Below, piece by piece: positions 43,556 through 58,246 of a stretch of 58,246 bases of DNA. The translations under genes and the position numbers were made by a program. Position 1 is the first letter of the stretch, and every line of letters starts with the position of its first letter. This DNA comes from Clostridia bacterium. Lineage in GTDB: Bacteria; Bacillota; DSM-521; Neomoorellales; SLTJ01. The stretch lies in NCBI GenBank assembly GCA_004347685.1, contig SLTJ01000033.1, forward strand, positions 77,527-135,772, written 5' to 3'. Below the pieces are notes generated by a model. The model saw only the letters and a program-made list of their open reading frames with translations, had not been told where the DNA came from and ran no database searches.

Positions 43556-43684
43556 TTGGTCTCTCCTCGAAATATGGTTTTATGTAACGTGGGTAAAATG
43601 TCGGGTATCGGGCGTCACTGGTTAGTATGCCATACTCAACAACAGTATTCATTGGGGGTTGATTGCACGTGGAATTTGTCTTGA
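43556..43684 (+). CDS. Possible 42-aa small protein or leader peptide
   Basis: A short frame begins at TTG 43556, only 5 bases after a strong Shine-Dalgarno AAGGAGG (43544-43550) that serves no other start. It encodes a peptide starting MVSPRNMVLCNVGK with three Cys and ends at TGA 43682-43684, overlapping the start of acyl-CoA dehydrogenase 3 (43663) in another frame. It may be translated and couple to the dehydrogenase, or be chance. I do not recognise the product. Confidence 0.3.
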   Translation: MVSPRNMVLCNVGKMSGIGRHWLVCHTQQQYSLGVDCTWNLS

Positions 43685-44814
43685 CCGATGATCAAAAACT
43701 AATCCAGGAAGCTGCCAGGGATTTTGCCCGGAACGAACTGGGGTCTGAAAGCGTACGTGAATTCGATGAGAAAGAAGAATATCCACTGGGACTTATCAGG
43801 AAGCTGGCCGGATTGGGCTGGCTTGGGTTACCCTTTCCTGAGGAGTATGGCGGCGCCGGGGGAAATGTGCTGGATCTGGCCATTTTCCTGGAGGGTATTG
43901 GCTACGGGATGGTGGCCTTGGCAGCCGCCTATTTGCAGACCGTTATCTTTGGGGGCATGTCCCTTTACGAATACGGTTCGGAAGAACAGAAGAAAGAGTA
44001 TCTCCCGCCGCTCATACGGGGTGAGAAGCTGTGGTGTCTGGCGGCCACGGAGCCCAATGCGGGCTCGGACCTGGCTTCCCTGGTCACTTCGGCTACCCCT
44101 GATGGTAACGGTTTTTTCACCATAAATGGGACCAAGACCTTTATCACCGGAGCTCACGTGGCCGACCACTTCTTGCTGGCGGCCAGAACCAACAGGGATG
44201 TTCCCAAACACAAGGGGATCACCATGTTCATAGTAGACTCCAGATCCCCAGGTGTAGAAGTACGGCGTTTACATAAACTCGGAATGCGGCCTGTGGGGAC
44301 AAACGAAGTGTTCCTGGAGAACGTGCGGGTTCCAGAAGGGAATGTCGCCGGGGGCCTCAACCAGGGTTGGGCAAATCTCCTTAAGACCCTGGACAATGAG
44401 CGGTGTGCCGTGGCGGCCATGTGCGTGGGGGCGTCGCAAAGAGTGGTGGACGACGCGCTGGAGTATGCTAAGAACAGGGTACAGTTTGGCCAACCTATCA
44501 GCAAGTTTCAAGTTATCCAGCATGCCCTGGCCAATATGCAGATAAAGGTTGACACAGCCAGATTGTTGACGTACCGCGCCGCCTGGATGGCTAAGGAAGG
44601 TTTGCCGTGCAGCAAGGAAACAGCCATGGCCAAAGTACATGCCTCCGAAACCATGGCTGACGTGGCTGACCAGGGATTGCGGATCCTTGGGGGTTACGGT
44701 TATATGATGGAATACGATATGCAGCGATACTTTCGTGATGCTAAATTTTTCCAGATTGCAGGGGGGACCCCCGAGATTCAACGCAACGTTATCGCCAAAC
44801 AGATGGGAGTTTGA
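43663..44814 (+). CDS. Acyl-CoA dehydrogenase 3
   Basis: A 383-aa flavoenzyme with LAATEPNAGSDLASL, INGTKTFITGA and LGGYGYMMEYDMQRYFRD. The catalytic loop reads QIAGGTPEIQ, without the Glu of YEGT; a Glu in DNERCAVAA is at the alternative helix-G site used by isovaleryl-CoA dehydrogenase. The start is TTG 43663 or GTG 43669; GGGGG lies upstream. It is followed 48 bp later by the ABC ATPase genes and is probably in their operon. Confidence 0.9.
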   Translation: MHVEFVLTDDQKLIQEAARDFARNELGSESVREFDEKEEYPLGLIRKLAGLGWLGLPFPEEYGGAGGNVLDLAIFLEGIGYGMVALAAAYLQTVIFGGMSLYEYGSEEQKKEYLPPLIRGEKLWCLAATEPNAGSDLASLVTSATPDGNGFFTINGTKTFITGAHVADHFLLAARTNRDVPKHKGITMFIVDSRSPGVEVRRLHKLGMRPVGTNEVFLENVRVPEGNVAGGLNQGWANLLKTLDNERCAVAAMCVGASQRVVDDALEYAKNRVQFGQPISKFQVIQHALANMQIKVDTARLLTYRAAWMAKEGLPCSKETAMAKVHASETMADVADQGLRILGGYGYMMEYDMQRYFRDAKFFQIAGGTPEIQRNVIAKQMGV

Positions 44815-44849
44815 GAAGTTTGGCCACGAGCAACACGGCCGCTTCTCAA
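44811..44849 (+). other. Inverted repeat after acyl-CoA dehydrogenase 3
   Basis: TTGAGAAG (44811-44818, containing the TGA stop) pairs with CTTCTCAA (44842-44849); inside, GGCC at 44822 and 44837 can pair too. No T-run. It could protect or punctuate the mRNA before livF 2. Confidence 0.5.
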
Positions 44850-44862
44850 GGTGGGGTGAATC

Positions 44863-45657
44863 ATGCTTGAGGTACGGAATGTGAAGGTAGTATATAATGA
44901 CGTGATACTGGTTCTAAAGGGGATCTCTCTTTCGGTGGCCGAAGGGTCTATCGTGGCTTTGCTGGGAGCTAACGGAGCAGGGAAGACTACTACGGCCAAG
45001 GCCGTATGCGGTCTGCTGGAATTTCAGGATGGCAATGTAACCGAAGGGACAATAGAATTTTTTGGTGCCCGTATCAACGATTGCTCCCCGGAAGACATCG
45101 TGGGGAGAGGAATCTCAATGGTACCTGAGGGCAGGCGGGTTTTCGTCCAGCTTACGGTGGAAGAAAACCTGAAGGTAGGCTCATACCTGCGCCGGGATAG
45201 CGCGGTGAGAAAAGACCTGGAGGATATATGGCAGTTGTTTCCATCGCTGTGGCGTCGTCGTGATGTCAAAGCGGGGTATCTCAGCGGCGGAGAGCAGCAA
45301 ATGCTGGCCATAGGCCGGGCCATGATGTCCAGGCCAAGACTGTTAATTCTGGACGAACCTTCCCTGGGCTTGTCTCCCAGGCTTGTAGAAGAAGTATTCC
45401 AGGTCATTGCCCGCCTTAACAAAGAAGCCAATATGACCCTGTTAATCATAGAGCAAAACGCTCATGCTGCTTTTTCTGTGGCCAGGTACGGATACATCAT
45501 GGAAAACGGCAGGATAGTTATGGATGCCGACACCGATCGCCTCGTCCGGGATGCCGATGTGAAGGAGTTTTATTTGGGGATAACCGATAATACCTCAGGC
45601 AGAAAGAGCTTTAATCAGGTAAAGTCGTACAAGCGCCGTAAACGCTGGTTATCCTGA
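44863..45657 (+). CDS. ABC importer ATPase LivF 2
   Basis: A 264-aa ATPase: Walker A GANGAGKTT, signature YLSGGEQQMLAIG, Walker B LLILDEPSLGLS, and IIEQNAH. The C-terminal 25 residues are basic (SYKRRKRWLS) beyond the usual end. ATG 44863. It leads the cassette livF-livG-ligase-livH-livM-livK. Confidence 0.93.
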   Translation: MLEVRNVKVVYNDVILVLKGISLSVAEGSIVALLGANGAGKTTTAKAVCGLLEFQDGNVTEGTIEFFGARINDCSPEDIVGRGISMVPEGRRVFVQLTVEENLKVGSYLRRDSAVRKDLEDIWQLFPSLWRRRDVKAGYLSGGEQQMLAIGRAMMSRPRLLILDEPSLGLSPRLVEEVFQVIARLNKEANMTLLIIEQNAHAAFSVARYGYIMENGRIVMDADTDRLVRDADVKEFYLGITDNTSGRKSFNQVKSYKRRKRWLS

Positions 45658-45669
45658 GGAGGTAGAGAA

Positions 45670-46470
45670 TTGGCGTATCTGGTCGTTTCCGGTGTTTCTT
45701 TAAGACTGGGTGGCTTGGAGATTTTAACTGACATCAGCCTGGAGATAGAGAAGGGGCAGTTGTATTCCATAATCGGACCCAACGGGGCAGGTAAGACAAG
45801 CCTGCTCAACTGTGTCAGCGGGCTGTATAGGCCTACACAAGGCGGCATTTTCTTTCAGGGGAAAGAAATAACCCGCCTGAAGCCGCATCGCATTGCGGCT
45901 CTTGGGATTGCCCGGGTTTTTCAAAACGTGGAGCTGTTTAAGAACACCACCGTGATCAACAACCTCTTGTTGGGGAGACACAGGCTGATGCATAGCGGAG
46001 TTATTTCCGGCGGTTTGTTTGTGGGAAGAACTATGCGTGAAGAACTTACACACCGCCGGAGAGTCGAAGAGGTTATTGATTTTCTGGAGATAGAAGCAAT
46101 CAGGTACCAAACAGTAGGACATCTATCCTATGGTTTGCAAAAGAGAGTCGAACTAGCCAGGGCCCTGGCAGCCGAGCCCGAGTTGCTGCTACTCGACGAG
46201 CCTGCCGCCGGGATGAATACCGAGGAGAAAGAGGATATGGCTCGCTTTATTCTGGACATCAAAGAAGTGATGGGTATCACCATGATCCTTATTGAACACG
46301 ACATGCGCTTTGTCATGGACTTATCAAATAGGGTGGCAGTGCTTGATTTTGGTCGGAAAATAGCCGAGGGTTTGCCGGCAGAGATCCAGAACAATCCCCG
46401 CGTCATCGAGGCCTACCTGGGCCGGGGAGAAGGCGCCTTGTTATCGCAGACGGAAGGAGCCGTGGAATAG
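45670..46470 (+). CDS. ABC importer ATPase LivG 2
   Basis: A 266-aa ATPase: Walker A GPNGAGKTS, signature HLSYGLQKRVELARAL, Walker B LLLLDEPAAGMN, IEHDMRFVM, all normal for LivG, in contrast to LivG 1. TTG 45670 with GAGGAGGTAG upstream, 12 bp after livF 2. Its stop directly abuts the ligase ATG. Confidence 0.93.
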   Translation: MAYLVVSGVSLRLGGLEILTDISLEIEKGQLYSIIGPNGAGKTSLLNCVSGLYRPTQGGIFFQGKEITRLKPHRIAALGIARVFQNVELFKNTTVINNLLLGRHRLMHSGVISGGLFVGRTMREELTHRRRVEEVIDFLEIEAIRYQTVGHLSYGLQKRVELARALAAEPELLLLDEPAAGMNTEEKEDMARFILDIKEVMGITMILIEHDMRFVMDLSNRVAVLDFGRKIAEGLPAEIQNNPRVIEAYLGRGEGALLSQTEGAVE

Positions 46471-48315
46471 ATGGCGGTTGTCCTGGAAGACGCTATTCCG
46501 GCGGTCGTGCCTCATCTTAACCGGGTGGATACCTTACCTGGGCTTTTTGTTGATCGGGTCAAGAAATATGGGGACAGAGTGGCCCTGCGAAAAAAAGACT
46601 TGGGTATCTGGCAGGAAATTTCGTGGTACGAGTATTATTTACACGTGCGCTATTTCTGCCTGGGTTTGGTTTCCCTGGGGCTGCAGAAAGGAGATCGGGT
46701 TTCTATCCTCGGGGACAACTGCCCAGAATGGTTGTATGCTGACCTGGCGGTTCAGTCTGTCGGAGGGATGGCTGTTGGCATCTACCCTACCAACCCGGCT
46801 CCGGAAGTTAAGTACATACTGGAGCATTCAGAATCAAGGTTTGTGGTGGTCTACGACCAGGAACAACTGGACAAGGTCTTAGAAGTCAAAGCTGACCTGC
46901 CCTACCTGGAAAGAGCCATTGTTATTGACACCAAAGGGTTACGCCATTACGATGATCCAATCATTATCAGTTTTGCCGAAGTAGAGAAGCGGGGCCAAAC
47001 CCTTGATAAGGGCAGACCGGAGTTGTTTGACGAGATTCTCAATACCGTTTCCGGTGAAGATGTTGCGGTGATGATTTACACGTCAGGGACTACTGGTGCT
47101 CCTAAAGGAGCTATGTTGACCCACTGCAACCTCTTACATGCCGCCGAACAGTGGCCGGCGGCCATGGAACTGTTCGAAAGTGATACAGTGGTTTCGTACC
47201 TACCACTGTGTCATATATTGGAAAGATGCATGTCCCTTGTGGTGGCGCTCAGGATCGGCTATACGGTTAACTTCGCCGAAAGCACGGACACCGTAATGGA
47301 AGCTCTCCGAGATGTTGCCCCGACGATCTTCGTCGGTGTTCCGAGGATTTGGGAGAAAATGTATTCGGCCCATGTGATCAAGGTACAGGAATCCACCCCC
47401 CTCAAGAGGTTCGCTTACCGGCTGGCCATTCCCGTGGGGGAGAAGGTTGTCAGCCTGCGATCACAGCGGCAACAGCCCGGCTTCCTGTTACGGGCACTTT
47501 ACAAGATTGCTGATTTCCTAGTCTTCGGTGCCATCAGGGATCAGTTGGGCTTGCGGCGGGCTCACCTTATGTGGTGCGGGGCCGCCCCTGTGGCTCCCGA
47601 GATTCTCAAGTTTTTCAACGCCATCGGTATAAGGGTCCGTGAGGCCTACGGGGCGACGGAAGCCTGCGGACTTATTGCCATCCACCCGGCCGCCGACATC
47701 AGATTCGGCACGGTAGGTAAGGTGGTCAGGGATATGGAAATCAGGATTGCCGAGGATGGAGAGATACTGTTGCGCGGTCCAATGATTTTCAAGGGTTACT
47801 TCAAGGATCCCGACTCCACTGCCGGTGCATGGGAGGGGGGATGGCTCCATACAGGTGACGTCGGGGTGATAGATGCCCACGGCCACCTCAAGATAGTGGA
47901 CCGCAAGAAGGATATAATAATAACTTCTGGCGGGAAAAACATTGCGCCCCAGGAGATCGAGAACAAGCTCAAAGTAAGCCCTTATGTGAAGGACGCAATT
48001 GTCATTGGCGACAAGAGGAAGTACATAACGGCCTTGATCGAAATTGATTACGAGAACGTAGGCAAGTGGGCAGAGAACAACGGTATCCCTTATACCACCT
48101 TTAAAGACCTTTCGTGGAACCCGAAGACGCACGAATTGATCCAGGATGTTGTAGATCAGGTGAATAAGGGGCTGGCCCAGGTGGAGACCATTAAGAAGTT
48201 CACCTTGCTCGCGAAACAACTAGACCAGGACGACGAGGAACTTACTGCTACGCAGAAGGTGCGGCGGAAGATAGTCGAGGAGAAATATAAAGAGATCATT
48301 GATGCGATGTACTAG
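46471..48315 (+). CDS. Long-chain-type acyl-CoA ligase inside the importer operon
   Basis: AMP-forming ligase of 614 aa, the FadD15-like long type: P-loop YTSGTTGAPKGAM, YGATEACG, WLHTGDVGVID, DRKKDIIITSGGKNIAP and a C-terminal extension (KKFTLLAKQLDQDDEELT) typical of that group. Placed with zero spacing after livG and before livH, it is almost certainly co-expressed with the importer. A vectorial role, trapping the imported acid as CoA thioester, is the simplest inference. Confidence 0.92.
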   Translation: MAVVLEDAIPAVVPHLNRVDTLPGLFVDRVKKYGDRVALRKKDLGIWQEISWYEYYLHVRYFCLGLVSLGLQKGDRVSILGDNCPEWLYADLAVQSVGGMAVGIYPTNPAPEVKYILEHSESRFVVVYDQEQLDKVLEVKADLPYLERAIVIDTKGLRHYDDPIIISFAEVEKRGQTLDKGRPELFDEILNTVSGEDVAVMIYTSGTTGAPKGAMLTHCNLLHAAEQWPAAMELFESDTVVSYLPLCHILERCMSLVVALRIGYTVNFAESTDTVMEALRDVAPTIFVGVPRIWEKMYSAHVIKVQESTPLKRFAYRLAIPVGEKVVSLRSQRQQPGFLLRALYKIADFLVFGAIRDQLGLRRAHLMWCGAAPVAPEILKFFNAIGIRVREAYGATEACGLIAIHPAADIRFGTVGKVVRDMEIRIAEDGEILLRGPMIFKGYFKDPDSTAGAWEGGWLHTGDVGVIDAHGHLKIVDRKKDIIITSGGKNIAPQEIENKLKVSPYVKDAIVIGDKRKYITALIEIDYENVGKWAENNGIPYTTFKDLSWNPKTHELIQDVVDQVNKGLAQVETIKKFTLLAKQLDQDDEELTATQKVRRKIVEEKYKEIIDAMY

Positions 48316-48358
48316 GTTTCCGGTCTGAATGGACAGGTCAGGAATTGGGGGGTAGAAA

Positions 48359-49234
48359 GTGGGTACTGAAATCCTTCAGCTTATGATTGGCGGGTTCGCA
48401 ACGGGGAGTATATACGCGTTGATCGCCCTTGGCTTTGTTTTGATTTATAAAGCTACCGGCATCCTCAATTTCGCCCAGGGGGAGTTGATGATGGTGGGAG
48501 CGTATATCTATTTTGCCCTGGTTACCGAGTTGCAGTTACCTTTTCTGGCGGCCTTTCTTTTGACCCTGGTACTGTCCGGTATCCTTGGTTTGGTCCTGGA
48601 GTTTGTCTTTATCGAGCGGATGGTGGGTGAACCAGTATTCTCGGTAGTAGTGATAACGCTTGGTCTGGCGAGTCTCCTGCGCAGCCTGACCGGGATTGTC
48701 TTTGGCGTTCTGGAAAAGGGCCTGGCTACTCCCTTTTCCGGCAAATCCTTGGCCATTGGCCCGCTAGTAATCTGGCAAACGCATGCTTATGCCATTGTTG
48801 GTGGCGTCGCGCTGTTTATCATTTTTATGGCCTTTTTCAAGTTCTCGAAGACCGGCATTGGCATGCGGGCTGCGGCGGAAGATCAAGACGTAGCCAGACT
48901 TATGGGAATAAATATCGGTAGAGTCTTCGGTCTCTCGTGGATTATCGCCGCGGTAGTAGCTTCCGTGGGTGGCATATTTTATGGTGACCTGAGCTTCCTG
49001 GAGCCGCACATGAGCTTCTTTGGGCTTAGAGCACTACCTGCGGCCCTGTTAGGCGGGCTCGACAGCGTTGGCGGCGCGCTTATCGGTGGCCTTGCTATCG
49101 GGCTGATCGAAGGTCTTGCCGGGGGATACCTGGGAGGTACCGGTCAGGAGTTGGCGCCATGGATCCTGGTGCTGGTGATCCTAATGGCCAGGCCCTACGG
49201 TCTATTCGGCACCAGAGAAATCAAGCGTGTCTAA
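48359..49234 (+). CDS. Branched-chain-type ABC permease LivH 2
   Basis: A 291-aa membrane protein: MIGGFATGSIYALIALGFVL, YKATGILNFAQGELMMVGAY, the classical LivH N terminus, then a coupling loop with AAAEDQDVARLMGINIG. GTG 48359 with a GGGGGTAG-type ribosome site. It lies 43 bp after the ligase gene. Confidence 0.94.
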   Translation: MGTEILQLMIGGFATGSIYALIALGFVLIYKATGILNFAQGELMMVGAYIYFALVTELQLPFLAAFLLTLVLSGILGLVLEFVFIERMVGEPVFSVVVITLGLASLLRSLTGIVFGVLEKGLATPFSGKSLAIGPLVIWQTHAYAIVGGVALFIIFMAFFKFSKTGIGMRAAAEDQDVARLMGINIGRVFGLSWIIAAVVASVGGIFYGDLSFLEPHMSFFGLRALPAALLGGLDSVGGALIGGLAIGLIEGLAGGYLGGTGQELAPWILVLVILMARPYGLFGTREIKRV

Positions 49235-49249
49235 TTAGGAGGTTTAGTT

Positions 49250-50299
49250 GTGGCACGTAGTGGTAATTTCAACGTCAGTTATCGCCAGGAGATAGCGATC
49301 TTTCGCACCCTGGGCCAGAAATTGTGGCTAGGCCTTCTGGGAGTTATCCTCCTGGCCTATCCCCTGCTTTTCGGCGAGTATTACGTTTACATTATTAACT
49401 TCGCTTTGATCGCCATCATTGCGGCTCTCGGTCTGAACCTTCTCACCGGATACACCGGCCAGATTTCCCTGGGCCACGCTGCCTTCCTGGCCGTGGGCGC
49501 CTACACGACTGCAATTTTTTCTTCCATGGGGTTACCTTTCATACTCGTATTACTCCTGTCGGCATTGACATCTCTAATCCTGGGGTTAATCATAGGTTTC
49601 CCATCACTCAGGCTGGAAGGGCTTTACCTGGCTATCGCTACCATGGCTTTCTACTTCATAGTTGCGTATGTCATTGCACACTGGACGGATATGACCGGAG
49701 GGCAGTACGGTCTTAAGGTCGCGCCTTTAAGAGTTTTGGGCCTACCCATAGATAGTAACACCAGATTCTATTATCTCCTCGTTACATTTGTCGTGGCCAG
49801 CGTCTATTTTGCTACTAACCTGGCCCGTTCGCGCGTCGGTAGAGCGTTCGTGGCTATCCGCGATCGGGATATAGCTGCCGAGGTTATGGGGATAGACGTG
49901 GCCAGGTACAAGCTGATATCGTTCGCAGTAAGCTCTGCCTACGCCGGTATGGCTGGGAGCCTGTACGCCTATTTTGTCGGCATACTCGCGCCTGAGCACT
50001 TTGGGTTTGACGTATCAATCCAGTATATCGCCATGATAATTGCCGGGGGTCTGGGGTCAATAGAAGGGGCCATAATCGGGGCCTTATTCATTTCCCTTTT
50101 ACCCGAGGGCCTGCGGTTTGTCACCGGGGCCCTGGCCAGTAGCTTCCCGGAACTAAGCAGCAACTTCTTGCTGCTGAAAGAGGGAGTATACGGCCTGATA
50201 ATCGTCCTGTTCCTGATTATTGAGCCTACCGGAATATACGGTATCTGGCGGCGCATAAAGGATAGTTGGGATACGTTTCCTTACAAGTATCGGGGATAG
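49250..50299 (+). CDS. Branched-chain-type ABC permease LivM 2
   Basis: A 349-aa membrane protein: LNLLTGYTGQISLGHAAFLA, a standard LivM segment, then GRAFVAIRDRDIAAEVMGID and IAGGLGSIEGAIIGALF. GTG 49250 with AGGAGG upstream, 15 bp after livH 2. Confidence 0.94.
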   Translation: MARSGNFNVSYRQEIAIFRTLGQKLWLGLLGVILLAYPLLFGEYYVYIINFALIAIIAALGLNLLTGYTGQISLGHAAFLAVGAYTTAIFSSMGLPFILVLLLSALTSLILGLIIGFPSLRLEGLYLAIATMAFYFIVAYVIAHWTDMTGGQYGLKVAPLRVLGLPIDSNTRFYYLLVTFVVASVYFATNLARSRVGRAFVAIRDRDIAAEVMGIDVARYKLISFAVSSAYAGMAGSLYAYFVGILAPEHFGFDVSIQYIAMIIAGGLGSIEGAIIGALFISLLPEGLRFVTGALASSFPELSSNFLLLKEGVYGLIIVLFLIIEPTGIYGIWRRIKDSWDTFPYKYRG

Positions 50300-50495
50300 G
50301 GGTATTGATCCTGGTGGGGAACGTGGGTCTTGTGCGGGCGGAGCGATTTGGCCAGGATGTAAGTGGCCAGGCGAGAAAGGGGGTGAGAGCCTTACGGATA
50401 AGCAAGTTTAACCGGGTCCGGACGTCTTTTCAGTCAGGGTATTAGATTGTGAGGCCGAAGGGTGAAAGTGAGTTACACAGAAGGAGGCACTTAAG

Positions 50496-51758
50496 GTGAG
50501 CAACCATCGCAAACCAATGATCGTGATTCTGGCCTTGCTGCTAGTGTTAGCCCTCGTCGCCTGCGGGCAGCAACAACAGGAAGCAGCGGGGCCAAAGGGA
50601 GAATCCGCAACCTCCAAAGAGGAAACCGCCGCCGGAGGCGTCGGTGAGGTCCGCGGGGTGACCGGTGACACTATTAGGATTGGAGCCATTCTCGACTTCA
50701 CCGGCCCTTACAAGTCAGCCGGGGTGCTTATGCGGTCAGGGATTGAAACCTACTTCAAGTACGTGAACGACCATGGTGGTATAAATGGACGCAAGGTGGT
50801 AACATTCTTTGAAGATAATCAGTCAAATCCGCCCACGTCTCTGGCAGCCGCCAATAAGCTGATTTTCAACGACAAAGTCTTTGCCCTGGCGGGGGTGCAC
50901 GGTTCTGCGGCCTTTGCCGCCATCTATGATTTAGTGGAAAAGGAGAAGGTCATTTCCTTTAGCCTGGGACACGCCACCCAGGATTTTGAGCCATTGAAAA
51001 AGATGGTTTTCCAGGTGCCAACCCCTTACTATCATCAGGCCGCGCGGATAGTGGATTTCTTTATTGACGACCTGGGGATAAAAGAACCGAAGATCGGAGT
51101 CATATACCAGGATGACGCGATGGGCATGGACGCCCTCAAAGGCGTTGAGGCCGAAGCCAAGGCCAGGGATATCGAGATTGTGGCCAAGGAGCCGTACCAG
51201 AGAGGAGCCACTGACCTTAGCACCCAGGTTCTCAATTTAAAGCGGAGCGGTGCCGAGCAGGTCATTGTTGGTGGTATATTTACCCAGGCGGGAATGTTCC
51301 TGAAAGAAGCCCAGAAAGTAAATTACAAGCCAGCCACCGCCGGGATCAGCCCCACTCTGAACGAAGTAGTGTTTGACGTGGCAGGAGAAGCCGCCGACGG
51401 GTTCTATGCTGCCAACTGCTTCTCCATGCCTGATGACGAGACTTACGTGCAGGCCGAGGAAATTGCCAAGAAATACAACGTTGAGCCCAATCCACACTTC
51501 CTCTATGGATTTGTCAATGCCGCGGTTCTGACCGAGGCGCTGGAGGCGGTTGGCGACGAGATAACGCCGGAAAAGGTAGCCGCAGCCTTGGAAAAACTCA
51601 ATAAGGTTACCGTCCCCGGGTTTGTTCCGTCAATAACCTTTGGTCCTGACAAACACTTCGCCACCGGGGCAAGCGGCCTGTTTAAGCTTGACTACGCCCA
51701 GAAGAAATGGGTACCGGCGGCTCCGTACAAGGAACCAGTGGGACTGCAGAAAAAATAG
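50496..51758 (+). CDS. ABC importer substrate-binding lipoprotein 2 (LivK type)
   Basis: A 420-aa binding protein with a lipoprotein signal: NHRKPMIVILALLLVLALVA followed by Cys23 and a Gln-rich start, then a short linker to about residue 50. The body begins IRIGAILDFTGPYKSAGVLM. Closely similar proteins bind aromatic acids, phenylacetate-type or amino-acid ligands; not distinguishable here. The 196-base gap before it holds no gene. GTG with AGAAGGAGG upstream. Confidence 0.92.
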   Translation: MSNHRKPMIVILALLLVLALVACGQQQQEAAGPKGESATSKEETAAGGVGEVRGVTGDTIRIGAILDFTGPYKSAGVLMRSGIETYFKYVNDHGGINGRKVVTFFEDNQSNPPTSLAAANKLIFNDKVFALAGVHGSAAFAAIYDLVEKEKVISFSLGHATQDFEPLKKMVFQVPTPYYHQAARIVDFFIDDLGIKEPKIGVIYQDDAMGMDALKGVEAEAKARDIEIVAKEPYQRGATDLSTQVLNLKRSGAEQVIVGGIFTQAGMFLKEAQKVNYKPATAGISPTLNEVVFDVAGEAADGFYAANCFSMPDDETYVQAEEIAKKYNVEPNPHFLYGFVNAAVLTEALEAVGDEITPEKVAAALEKLNKVTVPGFVPSITFGPDKHFATGASGLFKLDYAQKKWVPAAPYKEPVGLQKK

Positions 51759-51925: not shown

Positions 51926-52879
51926 CTACTCTTCTCTTGCCGACCTCTGCCGGCACCTTAATCTGCCCAGGTCAGCGGAGGTTCGCACGGTTTCAGCAGC
52001 GTTAATGAATGACTTCACTGGCCAGTCCATTTCTTTCTCCTTCTTGTAGATAACCCCCACCTTTCGAACCAAATTAACTTCTTCAACCGACAGCTTAACG
52101 ACAAGCCCCGATTCTATTTCGTCTCTGGCAATACTATATGGCACAAAGGCGGTGGCAAGGTTACTCATCACCGCCTGCTTGATACCCTCGAAATCATCCA
52201 TTTCGCTAATTATGTTAGGACGAACCCCGTAACGATCATAAAGTTCCTGCAGGGGGTACCAGAACCTTGTGCCGGTAGTGAAGGCCACCTGAGGAATACC
52301 GCATAAATCTCGCAGGCGCAAAGACGTAACTGTTGGCGGCAAAAAGTTATTGCCGGCGATGAAAACATAAGGGTCATCTAAAATATGAAAGATCTTCAGC
52401 GACGATGGGAGTTTGTCCTGCGGGCGGATACAACTTGCGTTGACCATACCGGCATCTGCCAATTCATCTGCCACGAAGGCAACAATCTCTTCGTAACGCG
52501 AGGTCGAGCTCCAGTTAACATGCAAAGCTGAATTTATCTCCCTAAGATGTTTCATGAAAAGCGGCATCCAATAGGACGCTATGGTAGGAGAAGATATTAC
52601 CCTCAGGTACAGTATTTCTTTGTCATCAGAAATACATTCCAGACCCTCGCTTAGTTGTTGAAGGGCCGTTTCAACGTATTGCAGTAGTTTCTTGCCCTTG
52701 GCAGTTAACTCTACCCTACGAGTCGTTCGAGAAAAGAGAGGGAAGCCAACCTCTTTTTCAAGCAGCTGAATTCGGGCTGTTATGGCGGGCTGGCTTATAT
52801 GTAGCTTTTCGGCTGCCCTGGAAAAGTGTCCTTCTCTGGCAACAAGGAGAAAAGCTTCCAGTTGAGGCAGTTGGGCCAT
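51926..52879 (-). CDS. LysR-family transcriptional regulator
   Basis: A 317-aa LTTR. The N-terminal winged helix-turn-helix is LPQLEAFLLVAREGHFSRAA, EKLHISQPAITARIQLLEKE; the rest is a periplasmic-binding-like effector domain. ATG 52879 is chosen since GGAGAGGGG (complement of 52887-52895) lies 7 bases upstream; ATG 52909 is in frame too. It diverges from the reductase-like operon and is its likely activator, responding to a pathway intermediate. Confidence 0.92.
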   Translation of the reverse strand: MAQLPQLEAFLLVAREGHFSRAAEKLHISQPAITARIQLLEKEVGFPLFSRTTRRVELTAKGKKLLQYVETALQQLSEGLECISDDKEILYLRVISSPTIASYWMPLFMKHLREINSALHVNWSSTSRYEEIVAFVADELADAGMVNASCIRPQDKLPSSLKIFHILDDPYVFIAGNNFLPPTVTSLRLRDLCGIPQVAFTTGTRFWYPLQELYDRYGVRPNIISEMDDFEGIKQAVMSNLATAFVPYSIARDEIESGLVVKLSVEEVNLVRKVGVIYKKEKEMDWPVKSFINAAETVRTSADLGRLRCRQRSAREE

Positions 52880-52931
52880 CTTAATACCCCTCTCCATGTA
52901 GTGTTTCATAAAGACACCTTATCAATATATC

Positions 52932-53037: not shown

Positions 53038-53179
53038 TGAGCCTAGGCAGGCAAATAAGTCACTAGTGGCCATTGCTGTCATGGCAGATTGACTGGCGCC
53101 GCTAGCATGGCCTGGCAGGTCCTGGATATAGGCTCGGTCAACGGAATGGGATACTGTAAAAGGGGTGGAGAAACTGGTC

Positions 53180-54337
53180 ATGTCTTCTACGCTGGATACA
53201 CTAAATGAGTTTCGCGAAGTAAATGCTGCTTTTCCCTATGCCGAGCCAGTACGCGAGTGGAAGAAACAAGGCGGGAAGGTTATAGGCTGGTTATGCAGTT
53301 ATGTGCCGGAAGAGATGCTTCATGCAGCAGGGGTTTTGCCCGTAAGGGTTACCGGTGGCTATGGCGAGCTGGCCTTGGAAGAGGCTACCGCCTACCTGGG
53401 AGTGATGCTGTGCTCCTTTGCTCGCAGTTGCCTGCAGCTAGCCATTGACCAGAAATATGAGTTCCTAGATGCCCTGGTAGGAGTGGCCACCTGTGAGGGC
53501 TCTCGTCACCTTGCCGAGGTTTGGGAACATTATATTAAGACCCCCCTGCTTGACATTCTTCCGCTACCTCACAAAATGCACCAGCGTGCGGAGGAGTTCT
53601 TTGCCGAGGAATTGCGGCGATTTAAGCTAAGGCTGGAAGAGTTTTTACAGGTTGAAATTACCGACAGTGCTCTATGGGGTTCCGTTGCCCTATACAATAA
53701 ACACCGCGAAATATCTCGCCAGTTATACGAACTGCGGAAAGCTGATTATCCGCCTCTTTCTGGCACCGAGGTATTGGAAGTGATGAATGCCAGCGTCATG
53801 ATGCCCAAGGAGCAGGCCAACGCTATGCTGGAAAGGTTACTGACGGAAGCCAAGGCCTCCGGGCGGGCCGTAAAGGGGAGCGTCCGCCTAATGTTGAGCG
53901 GCAGTATCTTAAATAACCCACAATTCGTCGCCGCGATCGAAGATCTGGGCGGGATAGTGGTAGTGGACGAGCTCTGTACCGGGCTTAGGTACTGGTGTGA
54001 TATGGTCGAGACTGACGGGCACCCTGACCCTGTGGTGGCGCTAGCTAGGCGGTATATGACGAAATTCCCCTGCGCCCGTATGAACCCCTTCAGCGAGCGC
54101 CTTAATCGCCTCTTGCCCCTCATTTCTGAGTACCGGGTTGAGGGCGTAATCACCAGGGCTATCAGGTATTGTAAACCGTACATCCAGGAGCAGCACATGC
54201 TGAAGACAGAATTGGAAAATCGCGGTGTACCGGTACTTGATTTAGACGTCGAATATGGAATGCCAGGCACTGGGCAGGTACGGACCAGAGTGCAGGCTTT
54301 TATTGAAATGCTGTTGGAGAGGAGAAAAGCCTCGTGA
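53180..54337 (+). CDS. Benzoyl-CoA reductase / 2-hydroxyacyl-CoA dehydratase family, smaller subunit (BcrC/BzdN-like)
   Basis: A 385-aa protein of the HgdB/BcrC/BzdN type. It has VIGWLCSYVPEEMLHAAGVL with Cys39, LGVMLCSFARSC with Cys78 and Cys84, LVGVATCEGSRH with Cys105, and VVDELCTGLRYW in the second half; Cys in such positions ligate the [4Fe-4S] cluster. Together with the next gene it would form the substrate-binding heterodimer that receives electrons from the ATPases. The length matches BcrC/BzdN (about 380). The start is ATG 53180 with GGTGGAG 9 bases upstream; GTG 53165 is possible. Whether it reduces an aromatic ring or eliminates water cannot be told from sequence. Confidence 0.85.
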   Translation: MSSTLDTLNEFREVNAAFPYAEPVREWKKQGGKVIGWLCSYVPEEMLHAAGVLPVRVTGGYGELALEEATAYLGVMLCSFARSCLQLAIDQKYEFLDALVGVATCEGSRHLAEVWEHYIKTPLLDILPLPHKMHQRAEEFFAEELRRFKLRLEEFLQVEITDSALWGSVALYNKHREISRQLYELRKADYPPLSGTEVLEVMNASVMMPKEQANAMLERLLTEAKASGRAVKGSVRLMLSGSILNNPQFVAAIEDLGGIVVVDELCTGLRYWCDMVETDGHPDPVVALARRYMTKFPCARMNPFSERLNRLLPLISEYRVEGVITRAIRYCKPYIQEQHMLKTELENRGVPVLDLDVEYGMPGTGQVRTRVQAFIEMLLERRKAS

Positions 54338-55647
54338 GGTTGCCAGTCGCTGATTTCTCTAAGATGGATGCGTCCATCAGGACTTTGGCCAGCATATACG
54401 AGCATCGAAAGGTCAGCCCGCGGGGGCAGGCGGAACTTCTCTGGTACCAGTATTATACCCAACACATGCAGAAGATCAGAGAGGCCTGGGAGAGAGGCGA
54501 ATTTATCCTCAGCATGTTTGACGCGTGCCCAGCAGAGATTCCGTATGCCATGGACTTACCGTGGTATGGAACGGTCGTTTACGGCCCAGGAGCGGTAGCC
54601 GTTGGTGCCAAGATTGAGGAGGCCACCCTTGATTCCGCTAGGCAGGTAGGGCTGATGCTGGAGACCTGTTCCGGGTGGCGGATGACGGTAGGAATGATGA
54701 TGCGGGGGTGGTATCCACGCCCAGGGGCAGTTGTCTCCGGTAATCCTACGTGTGATACCTGCGCCAAATGCTGGCCGCTGATGGCTTATCTCGCCAACGT
54801 TCCGAGTTTTTTCATAGACGTACCTTTTCCCGCGGGCAACGAAAGAAATATATCTTACGTGGCTACCGAGCTCGCCGAACTAATCGAATGGCTGGAAAAC
54901 GTAAGCGGGAAAAAAATGGATTGGGATAGGTTGCGGGAAACAGTCGAACTAGGCCGGCAGATGGTTGAGCTTAACAGGGAGATACAGGAAATCCTTAAGG
55001 CTAGGCCCTCGCCTATTGTGCCGCGCATGACCACGCAGTCGTACTGGTTTAATTGGATATATAGCGGCACCCCTGAGGGAGTGCATTTCCTGACCGCCCT
55101 CCGGGACGAGGTGAAGGAGAAGGCAGTTCGGGGAGCATCAGGGTTACCCCCGGTAAAGGGTGAGGCGCCGGTAAAAGAAAGGTTTCGCGTCATTAGCATA
55201 CCTCCTGTGCCGCAGATTAGGGGCAAGACCCTTGACTGGCTGTGGCGGGAATACGGTGTATCTATTGTTGTCAGCACCTTTATGCTCTGGCCAGACGTCG
55301 AGATGGATCCTGATAAACCCTTGGAGAGCATAGCCAGGAAATACCTTAACAATCCGCTGATTCGGCAGTATTTTAACCCCTGTGAGAGCCCATACGGCAC
55401 AGTCACTGCCACTGTACAGGCGGCCAGAGATTATGAAGCTAATGGGGTCATGATATGGGGGAACCCCTCGTGCGATGCAACCAGCGGTTTTGTCAAGATC
55501 ATGAGGGACCGCCTGGCGGAGACCGGGGTGCCTTCGGTAGTCTTTGACCACGATCCGGCAGATCCGACGTATACCAGCGAAGATGCTCTGAAGGAAAGGA
55601 TGGAGGAGTTTGTTGATCTCTTGGAGTCGCGGGAATGGGAGGGCTAA
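54334..55647 (+). CDS. Benzoyl-CoA reductase / 2-hydroxyacyl-CoA dehydratase family, larger subunit (BcrB/BzdO-like)
   Basis: A 437-aa partner subunit, in the size range of BcrB/BzdO (430-450), larger than typical HgdA-type dehydratase subunits. Family features: MFDACPAEIPYAMDL, LETCSGWRMTVG, NPTCDTCAKCW, FNPCESPYG, NPSCDATSGFVK and the C-terminal VVFDHDPADPTY with conserved acidic residues. The three-Cys cluster CDTCAKC is striking. GTG start overlapping the previous stop by 4 bases (GTGA), so translation is coupled. Confidence 0.85.
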   Translation: MRLPVADFSKMDASIRTLASIYEHRKVSPRGQAELLWYQYYTQHMQKIREAWERGEFILSMFDACPAEIPYAMDLPWYGTVVYGPGAVAVGAKIEEATLDSARQVGLMLETCSGWRMTVGMMMRGWYPRPGAVVSGNPTCDTCAKCWPLMAYLANVPSFFIDVPFPAGNERNISYVATELAELIEWLENVSGKKMDWDRLRETVELGRQMVELNREIQEILKARPSPIVPRMTTQSYWFNWIYSGTPEGVHFLTALRDEVKEKAVRGASGLPPVKGEAPVKERFRVISIPPVPQIRGKTLDWLWREYGVSIVVSTFMLWPDVEMDPDKPLESIARKYLNNPLIRQYFNPCESPYGTVTATVQAARDYEANGVMIWGNPSCDATSGFVKIMRDRLAETGVPSVVFDHDPADPTYTSEDALKERMEEFVDLLESREWEG

Positions 55648-55653
55648 ATAGAG

Positions 55654-56433
55654 GTGCCGGTGGTAGGTATAGATGTGGGCAGCCTAAGTACAGAAGTGGT
55701 GGTGCTGGAGGAAGGCGAGGTAGTATATAGTTGGGTTGAGGTTTCGGCTGACGATGCTGATACAGGGGCGAGAAAGGCGCTGGAGGCATACCTCAGGCAG
55801 GCTGGTTTATCTATAGACCAGCTAGGACCGGTTGGGAGTACCGGAGTGGGGCGGCGTGATCTATCCTTTGCCCAGGTGCGCAAGACCGTTCCCTCTTGCC
55901 TCGCCAAAGGGATCCACAAGATTTTTCCTACGGTCCGGACCGTCATTGATATTGGGGCCGAAACCAGCCATGTAGTTAAGGTTAATGCCAAGGGCAATCC
56001 TGAAGACTCTGTTGTCCACGATAAGTGCGGAGCTGGAACCGGTACCTTCTTGGAAGCTATAGCCAAAGTGTTGCACATGTCCCTTGACGGCATGGCTGAG
56101 CGGGCCTTGGCAGCTACTACTAAGGCTGAAATCGGCAACACCTGCGCAGTATTTATTGAGCAGGAGGTCATTTCCCTCCTGCACCAGAACCCTCCTACCC
56201 CGGTAGAGGAAATAATCGCTGGCGTTTTCGCCGCCATGGCCGTACGGGTTATGGGGATGGTAAGAATGGTCGAACTGAATCCAGATGTGGCATTTTGCGG
56301 AGGGGTGGCAAAGAACGCCGGCCTGGTGAGGGCATTGGAGGCGGAGCTTGGAGTAAAGCTTTTCATACCGGAGAACCCCCAACTGGTTGCGGCCCTTGGA
56401 GCAGCCCTTTGGGCCGGGGAAAGAAAGAATTAG
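55654..56433 (+). CDS. BadF/BadG/BcrA/BcrD-type ATPase 1 (BzdP-like)
   Basis: A 259-aa ASKHA-fold ATPase: GIDVGSLSTEVVVL (phosphate 1), DIGAETSHVVK (phosphate 2, where DIGGQDSK is usual), HDKCGAGTGTF with Cys125 and GNTCAVF with Cys164, the two ligands of the [4Fe-4S] cluster shared by the dimer; AFCGGVAKN near the C terminus. It couples ATP hydrolysis to low-potential electron transfer. It is divergent from ATPases 2 and 3 (SCLAKG in place of EIACHAKG). GTG 55654, 6 bp after the larger subunit. Confidence 0.87.
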   Translation: MPVVGIDVGSLSTEVVVLEEGEVVYSWVEVSADDADTGARKALEAYLRQAGLSIDQLGPVGSTGVGRRDLSFAQVRKTVPSCLAKGIHKIFPTVRTVIDIGAETSHVVKVNAKGNPEDSVVHDKCGAGTGTFLEAIAKVLHMSLDGMAERALAATTKAEIGNTCAVFIEQEVISLLHQNPPTPVEEIIAGVFAAMAVRVMGMVRMVELNPDVAFCGGVAKNAGLVRALEAELGVKLFIPENPQLVAALGAALWAGERKN

Positions 56434-56456
56434 CCAGCCTGCGGGGGTAGGGAGAA

Positions 56457-57272
56457 ATGTTGGTGGCTGGTATTGACGTAGGGTCACGTAATGCTAAGGC
56501 AGTGGTGATGCAAAATGGCGAAATCGTTTCTTATGGTGTTTGCGACACAGGCCCTAGTAGCGCCGAGAGTGCCCAAGAAGCAGTTGGGTCGGCCCTTCGG
56601 GGGACAGAATTTCGCCTGCAGGACCTTGATTATGTAATAGCCACTGGTTATGGGCGGGTGCTGGTACCCTTTGCCAATGAAAACGTCTCGGAAATTGCCT
56701 GCCATGCCCGTGGAGCCCATTGGTATTTCCCCTCGACCAGGACGATCTTGGATATTGGCGGGCAAGACAGTAAGGCTATCAATTGTAATGAAACTGGCCA
56801 AGTTACTCGCTTTGTGATGAATGATAAATGCGCTGGCGGAACCGGGCGCTTCCTCGAGTCCATAGCTGACTTGTTCCAGGTGTCCCTTGAGGAGATGGGG
56901 AGGATGGCCTTACAGTCAAAAACTGTTATTCCCTTTGGCACTTCTTGTGCCCTTCTTGCCAGGTCAGAGGCTATCGCTTTGCTGAAAAAGGGGGTGTTGA
57001 AAAACGATATCCTGGCGGCCATACATAACGTCCTGGCCAGTAGGTGCTATAACCTTGTGCAGCGCGTTTCCTTAGAACCTGATTTTATTATGACTGGCGG
57101 CGTGTGCAAGAATTTGGCAATGCTGGTTAAGATCCAGGAGAAAGTTGGCAGGGAACCCCTGGTTCCCCCTGAACCGCTGATAGTCGGGGCTTTAGGTGCT
57201 GCCCTTTTTGCCGAGGAGAGGTTTGCCGCCAGTAGCGCCGGTATGCGGCCCTCGGCTGCCGTCAAGGGCTGA
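56457..57272 (+). CDS. BadF/BcrA-type ATPase 2 (BzdQ/BcrD-like)
   Basis: A 271-aa ATPase of the same fold: AGIDVGSRNAKAVV, TGYGRVLV, EIACHARG, DIGGQDSKAI, NDKCAGGTGRF with Cys125 and GTSCALL with Cys164. All motifs are canonical for HgdC/BcrD/BzdQ. ATG 56457 with GGGGGTAGGGAG upstream. Clearly a close paralogue of the next gene. Confidence 0.9.
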   Translation: MLVAGIDVGSRNAKAVVMQNGEIVSYGVCDTGPSSAESAQEAVGSALRGTEFRLQDLDYVIATGYGRVLVPFANENVSEIACHARGAHWYFPSTRTILDIGGQDSKAINCNETGQVTRFVMNDKCAGGTGRFLESIADLFQVSLEEMGRMALQSKTVIPFGTSCALLARSEAIALLKKGVLKNDILAAIHNVLASRCYNLVQRVSLEPDFIMTGGVCKNLAMLVKIQEKVGREPLVPPEPLIVGALGAALFAEERFAASSAGMRPSAAVKG

Positions 57273-57316
57273 GGGGAGAAAAACGATCTTTGTCTGGTTC
57301 TGGAGGTATACTGCAA

Positions 57317-58144
57317 GTGGTTGTTGCGGGTATAGATATCGGATCTCGGATTGCTAAGGCCGCAATTATGGAGGCAGGTAGTATTGTTTCCTACGCCGTC
57401 CTTGATACTGGCCTGGATAGTACCCAGACGGCCATGAAGGTCTTGCGTCTGGCTGCCAGCAAAGCAGGGGCCACGGCCAGTGATATTCAATACATTGTGG
57501 CTACTGGTTATGGACGGGTACTGGTGGAGTTTGCTGATGAGATGGTTTCCGAAATTGCCTGTCATGCCAAAGGGGTAAACTATTATTTCCCTTCAGCGCG
57601 GACAGTGCTGGATGTAGGGGGGCAGGACAGCAAAGTTATCAACTGCGACGAAAAGGGCCGGGTAGTCAGTTTTGCTATGAATGATAAGTGCGCTGGAGGA
57701 ACCGGACGATTTCTGGAAACCATGGCTGACCTGCTGCAACTGCCCCTGGACAAAATGAGCATGCTGTCGTTAAAAGCGGCAAAACCGGTGCCATTGAGTA
57801 GCCATTGCGTGATCTACGAGAAGTCTGAGGTTCTGCTTAAGTTGCGGCAGGGAGTGCCTAAATATGACCTGGTAGCAGGGATATACGAATCATTGGTTAC
57901 CCGGATCATGGATCTACTAGCCAAGGTTTCGTTACAGGAAGATTTTGTCTTTGGTGGCGGAGTGGCCAGGAATATCGGGTTGTTTACCAAGTTGCAGGAA
58001 CGCCTTGGGGTGGGGGCTAAGACAATTCCCGAACCAGTCATCCAGGGGGCGGTGGGGGCTGCCGTTCTCGCCGGCGAAAGAATGCGTGAGGGACATGCAA
58101 GAAAACATCAAAAGGAGTGGAATACGTGGCTTACAACGATTTAA
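57317..58144 (+). CDS. BadF/BcrA-type ATPase 3, tandem paralogue of ATPase 2
   Basis: A 275-aa ATPase: AGIDIGSRIAKAAI, TGYGRVLV, EIACHAKG, DVGGQDSKVI, NDKCAGGTGRF with Cys125 and SSHCVIY with Cys164. With GTG 57317 as start (GGAGG at 57302-57306) the two Cys fall at exactly the same numbers as in ATPases 1 and 2, which supports the three chosen starts; TTG 57290 is the longer alternative. The segment around the second Cys (PLSSHC) differs from PFGTSC of ATPase 2, so the two may not be interchangeable. Its end overlaps the UbiD-like gene by 19 bases. Confidence 0.88.
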   Translation: MVVAGIDIGSRIAKAAIMEAGSIVSYAVLDTGLDSTQTAMKVLRLAASKAGATASDIQYIVATGYGRVLVEFADEMVSEIACHAKGVNYYFPSARTVLDVGGQDSKVINCDEKGRVVSFAMNDKCAGGTGRFLETMADLLQLPLDKMSMLSLKAAKPVPLSSHCVIYEKSEVLLKLRQGVPKYDLVAGIYESLVTRIMDLLAKVSLQEDFVFGGGVARNIGLFTKLQERLGVGAKTIPEPVIQGAVGAAVLAGERMREGHARKHQKEWNTWLTTI

Positions 58145-58246
58145 GGGACTGGATATCTGCGCTGGAAACAGAAGGAGAACTAGCGAGGGTTAAGGCAAGA
58201 GTAGACTGGGACTTGGAGGTAGGTGGTATTACCCAGCGTGTTTTTG
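58126..58246 (+). CDS. UbiD-family decarboxylase, 3' end outside window
   Basis: The last 121 bases encode a 40-residue N terminus: MAYNDLRDWISALETEGELA, then VKARVDWDLEVGGITQRVF. This is the conserved start of UbiD/phenolic-acid (de)carboxylases, which use prenylated FMN and act on aromatic or alpha,beta-unsaturated carboxylates, including phthaloyl-CoA and phenylphosphate systems. GTG 58126 has AAGGAG (58112-58117) 8 bases upstream and overlaps ATPase 3, so it belongs to the same operon. Confidence 0.8.
   Translation, partial: MAYNDLRDWISALETEGELARVKARVDWDLEVGGITQRVF

Follow-up and report, generated by a model that had tools for sequence, protein, structure and literature searches.

A predicted ATP-driven double-cubane reductase operon with an extra activase gene and an adjoining ubiD in a Clostridia bacterium

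The window analyzed here, a 58,246-nucleotide stretch from a Clostridia bacterium, closes with an operon encoding two core subunits of the benzoyl-CoA reductase/2-hydroxyacyl-CoA dehydratase (BCR/HAD) family, three activase-type ATPases and the beginning of a UbiD protein. With moderate confidence, we predict that this operon specifies an ATP-driven double-cubane reductase from an uncharacterised branch of the family, related to enzymes that open benzene rings. Both cores are PF06050 proteins with cluster cysteines and are accompanied by PF01869 BadF-type activases, the combination that defines the BCR/HAD superfamily. An earlier note on this DNA had reported three consecutive BadF/BcrA-type ATPases after two core subunits, and this was borne out, as all three ATPases matched PF01869/TIGR00241. 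The genes lie on the forward strand in the order core B, core A, ATPases 1, 2 and 3, and ubiD, with gaps of -4, 6, 23, 17 and -19 bp that make a single transcription unit likely. The operon is a known two-ATPase module to which an extra canonical paralogue has been added, and it forms a new branch of the family.

Core B (53165..54337, +) carries the features of a double-cubane subunit. Its closest solved relatives are BzdN (1.8e-50) and DCCP (6.6e-47), and all six double-cubane ligands are kept, with BzdN Cys 36, 73, 100, 263, 293 and 327 corresponding to C44, C83, C110, C271, C303 and C336. The same six-cysteine set is common to DCCP (6eno, 7yyl), and two of the three arginines near the distal sub-cluster are also retained in core B (R61 and R275). 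BzdN holds an [8Fe-9S] cluster that serves as an electron store (PMC11971306). The full set is not kept in HadC, which lacks Cys 36 and 263, in MbdN, or in the BcrC encoded elsewhere in the same genome, which lacks three of the six. The best NCBIfam model for core B was double_cubane (NF040772), with 253.7 bits against a cut-off of 350, and the equivalog scores also fell below their cut-offs (BzdN, 165.7 vs 453.8; BcrC, 152.4 vs 421.15). The earlier description of the cores as BcrC/BcrB-type was therefore loose: there are two core subunits, but the Bcr, Bzd and Had equivalog cut-offs are far from reached and core B is of the BzdN/DCCP type, unlike BcrC. Among core B relatives, four (L137, L139, L140 and L141) have three of the six cysteines replaced by Ser, Asp or Ala/Thr, which suggests that one lineage has lost the double cubane.

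Core A (54334..55647, +) is remote from all solved structures, the nearest being BzdO (1.4e-15) and HadB (1.3e-9). Its AlphaFold model (pLDDT 77, pTM 0.82) has the predicted fold of HadB, BzdO and MbdO, with Z scores of 34-37, and all three ligands of the open-site [4Fe-4S] cluster are present as C112, C140 and C380 (C95, C128 and C380 in BzdO). Equivalog scores were again low for core A (BcrB, 69.5 vs 486.55; BzdO, 65.9 vs 448.6), and neither core reached the HAD equivalogs (NF052455, 78 vs 750; NF052456, 156 vs 700). The top PDB sequence match of both cores is 8s02, the BZD-type class I enzyme BzdNOPQ of Aromatoleum sp. CIB, which likewise combines a double-cubane subunit, an open-site [4Fe-4S] subunit and an ATPase pair.

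Phylogenies placed both cores in clades of their own. A GTDB r220 contig scan with core A alone found only three relatives and was followed by profile searches of 400 and 395 genomes from two other phyla; in the window's own phylum, 398 genomes searched with a single sequence yielded nothing else at E 1e-40. Core A formed a clade with L057, L058 and L130 (support 100/99); for core B, the clade comprised L057 and L058 (95/94). Both clades take in Chloroflexota and deltaproteobacterial homologues and stand apart from the Had/Bcr/Mbd groups, BzdO/BzdN and DCCP, with weak support for the deeper order. The earlier proposal that the system departs from ordinary dehydratases and from ordinary class I benzoyl-CoA reductases alike agrees with these trees and with the unreached cut-offs; in particular, neither core joins the HgdAB-type dehydratases.

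A close counterpart is L058 (Dehalococcoidales bin10, CP070842), a Chloroflexota locus with the same order of core B, core A, ATPase 1 and ATPase 2 and with orthologous ATPases. L130, also from Chloroflexota, shares the core A clade and the orthologous ATPases, although its locus is cut inside core A. Unlike the present operon, both have only two ATPases and no ubiD, and in both the canonical ATPase is fused to a C-terminal ferredoxin-like domain and followed by a plsX-like gene (L058:12032-13099; L130:7119-8339). In L058, core A contains a frame shift close to the N-terminal third (L058:9977-10270), probably by a sequencing error in this metagenome-assembled genome. The L057 contig stops inside core B and the three activase matches of its genome are on other contigs, making L057 uninformative about a third ATPase. 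Separately, two activase domains occur in a single 577-aa reading frame next to a core A relative (G405:C79:713-2332), possibly a natural fusion of the ATPase pair. MtrA-like genes were also seen adjoining or near BCR-like operons (L059:3886-4731; L058:20064-20759, PF04208 in L058).

The three ATPases are not equivalent. Both cluster cysteines claimed in the earlier note, at 125 and 164, are present in all of them (C125 and C164 in ATPase 1, with aligned counterparts in ATPases 2 and 3), but its claim of normal nucleotide motifs throughout overlooked ATPase 1 (55654..56433, +). In this protein DIGAETS stands in place of the canonical DIGGQDxK, and of 60 positions conserved in canonical activases it differs at 20, compared to 6 for ATPase 2 (56457..57272, +) and 7 for ATPase 3 (57290..58144, +). 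ATPase 1 grouped with its namesakes in L058 and L130 (100/99). ATPases 2 and 3 fell in a single clade with ATPase 2 of the same two loci (100/100). Together these groupings show that the pair of one divergent and one canonical ATPase gene is conserved in Chloroflexota. Divergent partners of this general kind, including BcrD, MbdP and the second ATPase of the wider related group, accompany a canonical ATPase in other operons. The pair typical of class I enzymes is thus found here as divergent ATPase 1 and canonical ATPase 2, its likely partner, with cluster cysteines in both and ATPase 3 as an addition.

Three adjacent ATPases are unusual, as the earlier note had supposed. In 15 activase-rich genomes, 58 ATPases stood alone and 23 pairs were adjacent, with no triples, and among the related neighborhoods read, 11 had exactly two ATPases, the rest had none or were cut or broken, and none had three. 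No three-ATPase operon of the BCR/HAD family appeared in literature titles or abstracts, although such absence proves little. ATPase 3 branched outside the group of ATPase 2 and its Chloroflexota counterparts (98/92, and 95/88 in a smaller tree), but a sister pair with ATPase 2 was not rejected by the approximately unbiased (AU) test (p 0.245). Accordingly, ATPase 3 may predate or postdate the divergence from Chloroflexota. A comparison with 348 genomes of the same phylum turned up no ATPase closer to ATPase 3 than ATPase 2 is.

Most simply, ATPase 3 is either an alternative canonical partner or a redundant copy. The first fits the earlier suggestion of an alternate pair, with ATPase 1 as the divergent partner and ATPases 2 and 3 as canonical paralogues. 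The second, in which ATPase 3 has no distinct role, is possible though not likely and would sit comfortably with a double-cubane reductase; it draws on the 49% identity of ATPases 2 and 3, their shared clade (100/100) and the AU result. Against redundancy, ATPase 3 keeps both cluster cysteines and the nucleotide motifs at this level of identity, which suggests selection, since erosion would be expected of a copy without function.

The electron path that we propose for the double-cubane reductase is modeled on BzdNO (PMC11971306). Reduced ferredoxin would charge a [4Fe-4S] cluster held between divergent ATPase 1 and canonical ATPase 2, and ATP hydrolysis would drive electrons to a predicted [8Fe-9S] cluster in core B, where they would be stored. 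Next they would reach the open-site [4Fe-4S] cluster in core A, where the substrate, probably an acyl-CoA thioester made by the upstream ligase, would be reduced. ATPase 3 could take the place of ATPase 2 to give an alternative pair, or could serve as an activator in homodimeric form, and UbiD, if it works with the enzyme, might add or remove a carboxylate before or after reduction.

Some observations weigh against this prediction. The ATPase pairing in it is drawn by analogy only, and core A lacks residues that line the BzdO active site: the acid/base residues Glu65 and His131 are replaced by Val81 and Cys143, and the thioester-binding Tyr97 by Gly114. With these changes the chemistry may not be ring reduction, and the substrate perhaps not even a CoA ester. 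The three positions differ in what they say. Tyr97 is retained in HadB, BcrB and the other rows covering the column, with the window, L057 and L058 as the exceptions, while position 131 is variable elsewhere, being other than His in HadB, BcrB and MbdO. The alignment of the Glu65 column is uncertain, as pLDDT falls below 50 at core A residues 81-83 and L058 seemingly keeps a Glu in its frame-shifted piece. Together with the separate clade, the additional ATPase and the adjacent ubiD, the missing active-site equivalents set the operon apart from BzdNOPQ.

The ubiD gene starts at GTG 58126, preceded by AAAAGGAG, and overlaps ATPase 3 by 19 bp, so co-transcription is likely. The overlapping UbiD gene of the earlier note is real in its overlap and in its match to Pfam UbiD_N (PF20695; 31.4 bits against a cut-off of 24.3, over 30 residues only), but just 40 codons (58126..58246, +) are present before the end of the window, which is also the end of contig C5. 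The fragment is 60% identical to a UbiD paralogue of the same genome, and three contig ends bear UbiD C-terminal pieces; among the UbiD contigs read, none showed a 20- or 25-base overlap that would continue the gene. The genome (3.1 Mb, 54 contigs) carries ~26 UbiD family matches, making a UbiD neighbor weaker evidence here than elsewhere, and the link of UbiD to the reductase is weak. UbiD genes of this genome (for example L060-L070) often lie beside LIV transporters, NUBPL/ParA-like P-loop proteins (PF10609) and aldehyde:ferredoxin oxidoreductases (AOR family), and some of the clusters are nearly duplicated (L063/L064, L065/L066).

These findings bear on the idea, developed from the earlier note, that UbiD is coupled to a true class I aryl-CoA reductase of a carboxylated aromatic acyl-CoA, removing or adding the carboxylate in the manner of phthaloyl-CoA decarboxylase followed by benzoyl-CoA reductase. 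UbiD-type phthaloyl-CoA decarboxylases exist (PMC12016498), the ubiD start overlaps ATPase 3, the genome is rich in UbiD, and CoA ligases and LIV transporters are nearby. However, residues retained by BzdO, BcrB and the wider related group are missing from core A, a canonical bcrCBAD set is present in the genome already, and no ubiD was found in any related neighborhood read. We consider this reading unlikely, and the pathway is speculative given the two-plus-one pattern of the ATPases, the changes in the active site and the large number of ubiD genes. There is similarly only an outside chance that the operon represents a new class, in which the divergent ATPase alternates between two canonical ATPases, or all three form a pump, to drive a reaction different from benzoyl-CoA ring reduction, with a dedicated UbiD handling the substrate.

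A further alternative is a DCCP-like reductase of small molecules that are not CoA esters, or an electron-activation module for another protein. The double_cubane model as the best match of core B, even below its cut-off, and the loss of the thioester-binding Tyr97 in core A lean this way. However, DCCP consists of two identical subunits, each with a double cubane (PMC11971306), and has one activase, whereas the operon encodes a predicted heterodimeric core, in which core A has only three [4Fe-4S] ligands, and three ATPases. Core B does not group with DCCP and the neighboring genes are acyl-CoA genes, so we rate this alternative as quite improbable. Least probable is a HAD-type dehydratase, in which an activase would provide catalytic single-electron activation of a 2-hydroxyacyl-CoA or similar compound: HadBC and its activator HadI, the 2-hydroxyisocaproyl-CoA dehydratase system, share the activase family and the core A fold (the model matches HadB and BzdO about equally well, with Z 37 and Z 35) and HadB also lacks a His at position 131, but HadC lacks two of the cysteines that core B has in full, characterised HAD activators are single proteins (4eht, 1hux) that act catalytically (PMC11971306) rather than divergent pairs, and the core trees do not join HAD.

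Returning to the predicted double-cubane reductase, its surroundings include acyl-CoA genes. Upstream on the same strand (43663..51758) lie genes for an acyl-CoA dehydrogenase, a LIV-type ABC transporter, a 614-aa acyl-CoA ligase and a periplasmic binding protein, which we infer to be tied to the operon. The transporter and ligase speak for the double-cubane reductase, and L058 likewise has a LIV transporter upstream. A LysR-type regulator (51926..52909, -) is divergent from the operon across a 255-bp intergenic region. A scan for the LysR-type TTN9AA motif gave hits only slightly above chance and was uninformative, and promoter and terminator scans were also near chance.

Elsewhere in the genome, contig C18 carries the canonical bcrCBAD set, with BcrC and BcrB above their cut-offs and BcrA and BcrD near theirs, and contig C16 carries a DCCP-like protein with an activase, so that the present operon is an addition to both. 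The C18 set resembles it as a BCR/HAD family system of two cores and two ATPases but is of the canonical Bcr type, with a BcrC that lacks the double-cubane ligand set. A CRISPR-like repeat array lies near this bcr cluster (L010:14816-15726). On C20, a lone 319 aa activase-type ATPase was found near a thiolase-like gene, an acyl-CoA dehydrogenase, and two NifH-like and one NifD-like nitrogenase-family genes (L012:6819-15984).

By joining complete double-cubane ligands to a changed active site and an additional activator gene, this separate branch of the BCR/HAD family would provide a natural test of the purpose of the [8Fe-9S] cluster. It may also offer a test of whether the choice of ATPase partner tunes the delivery of low-potential electrons.

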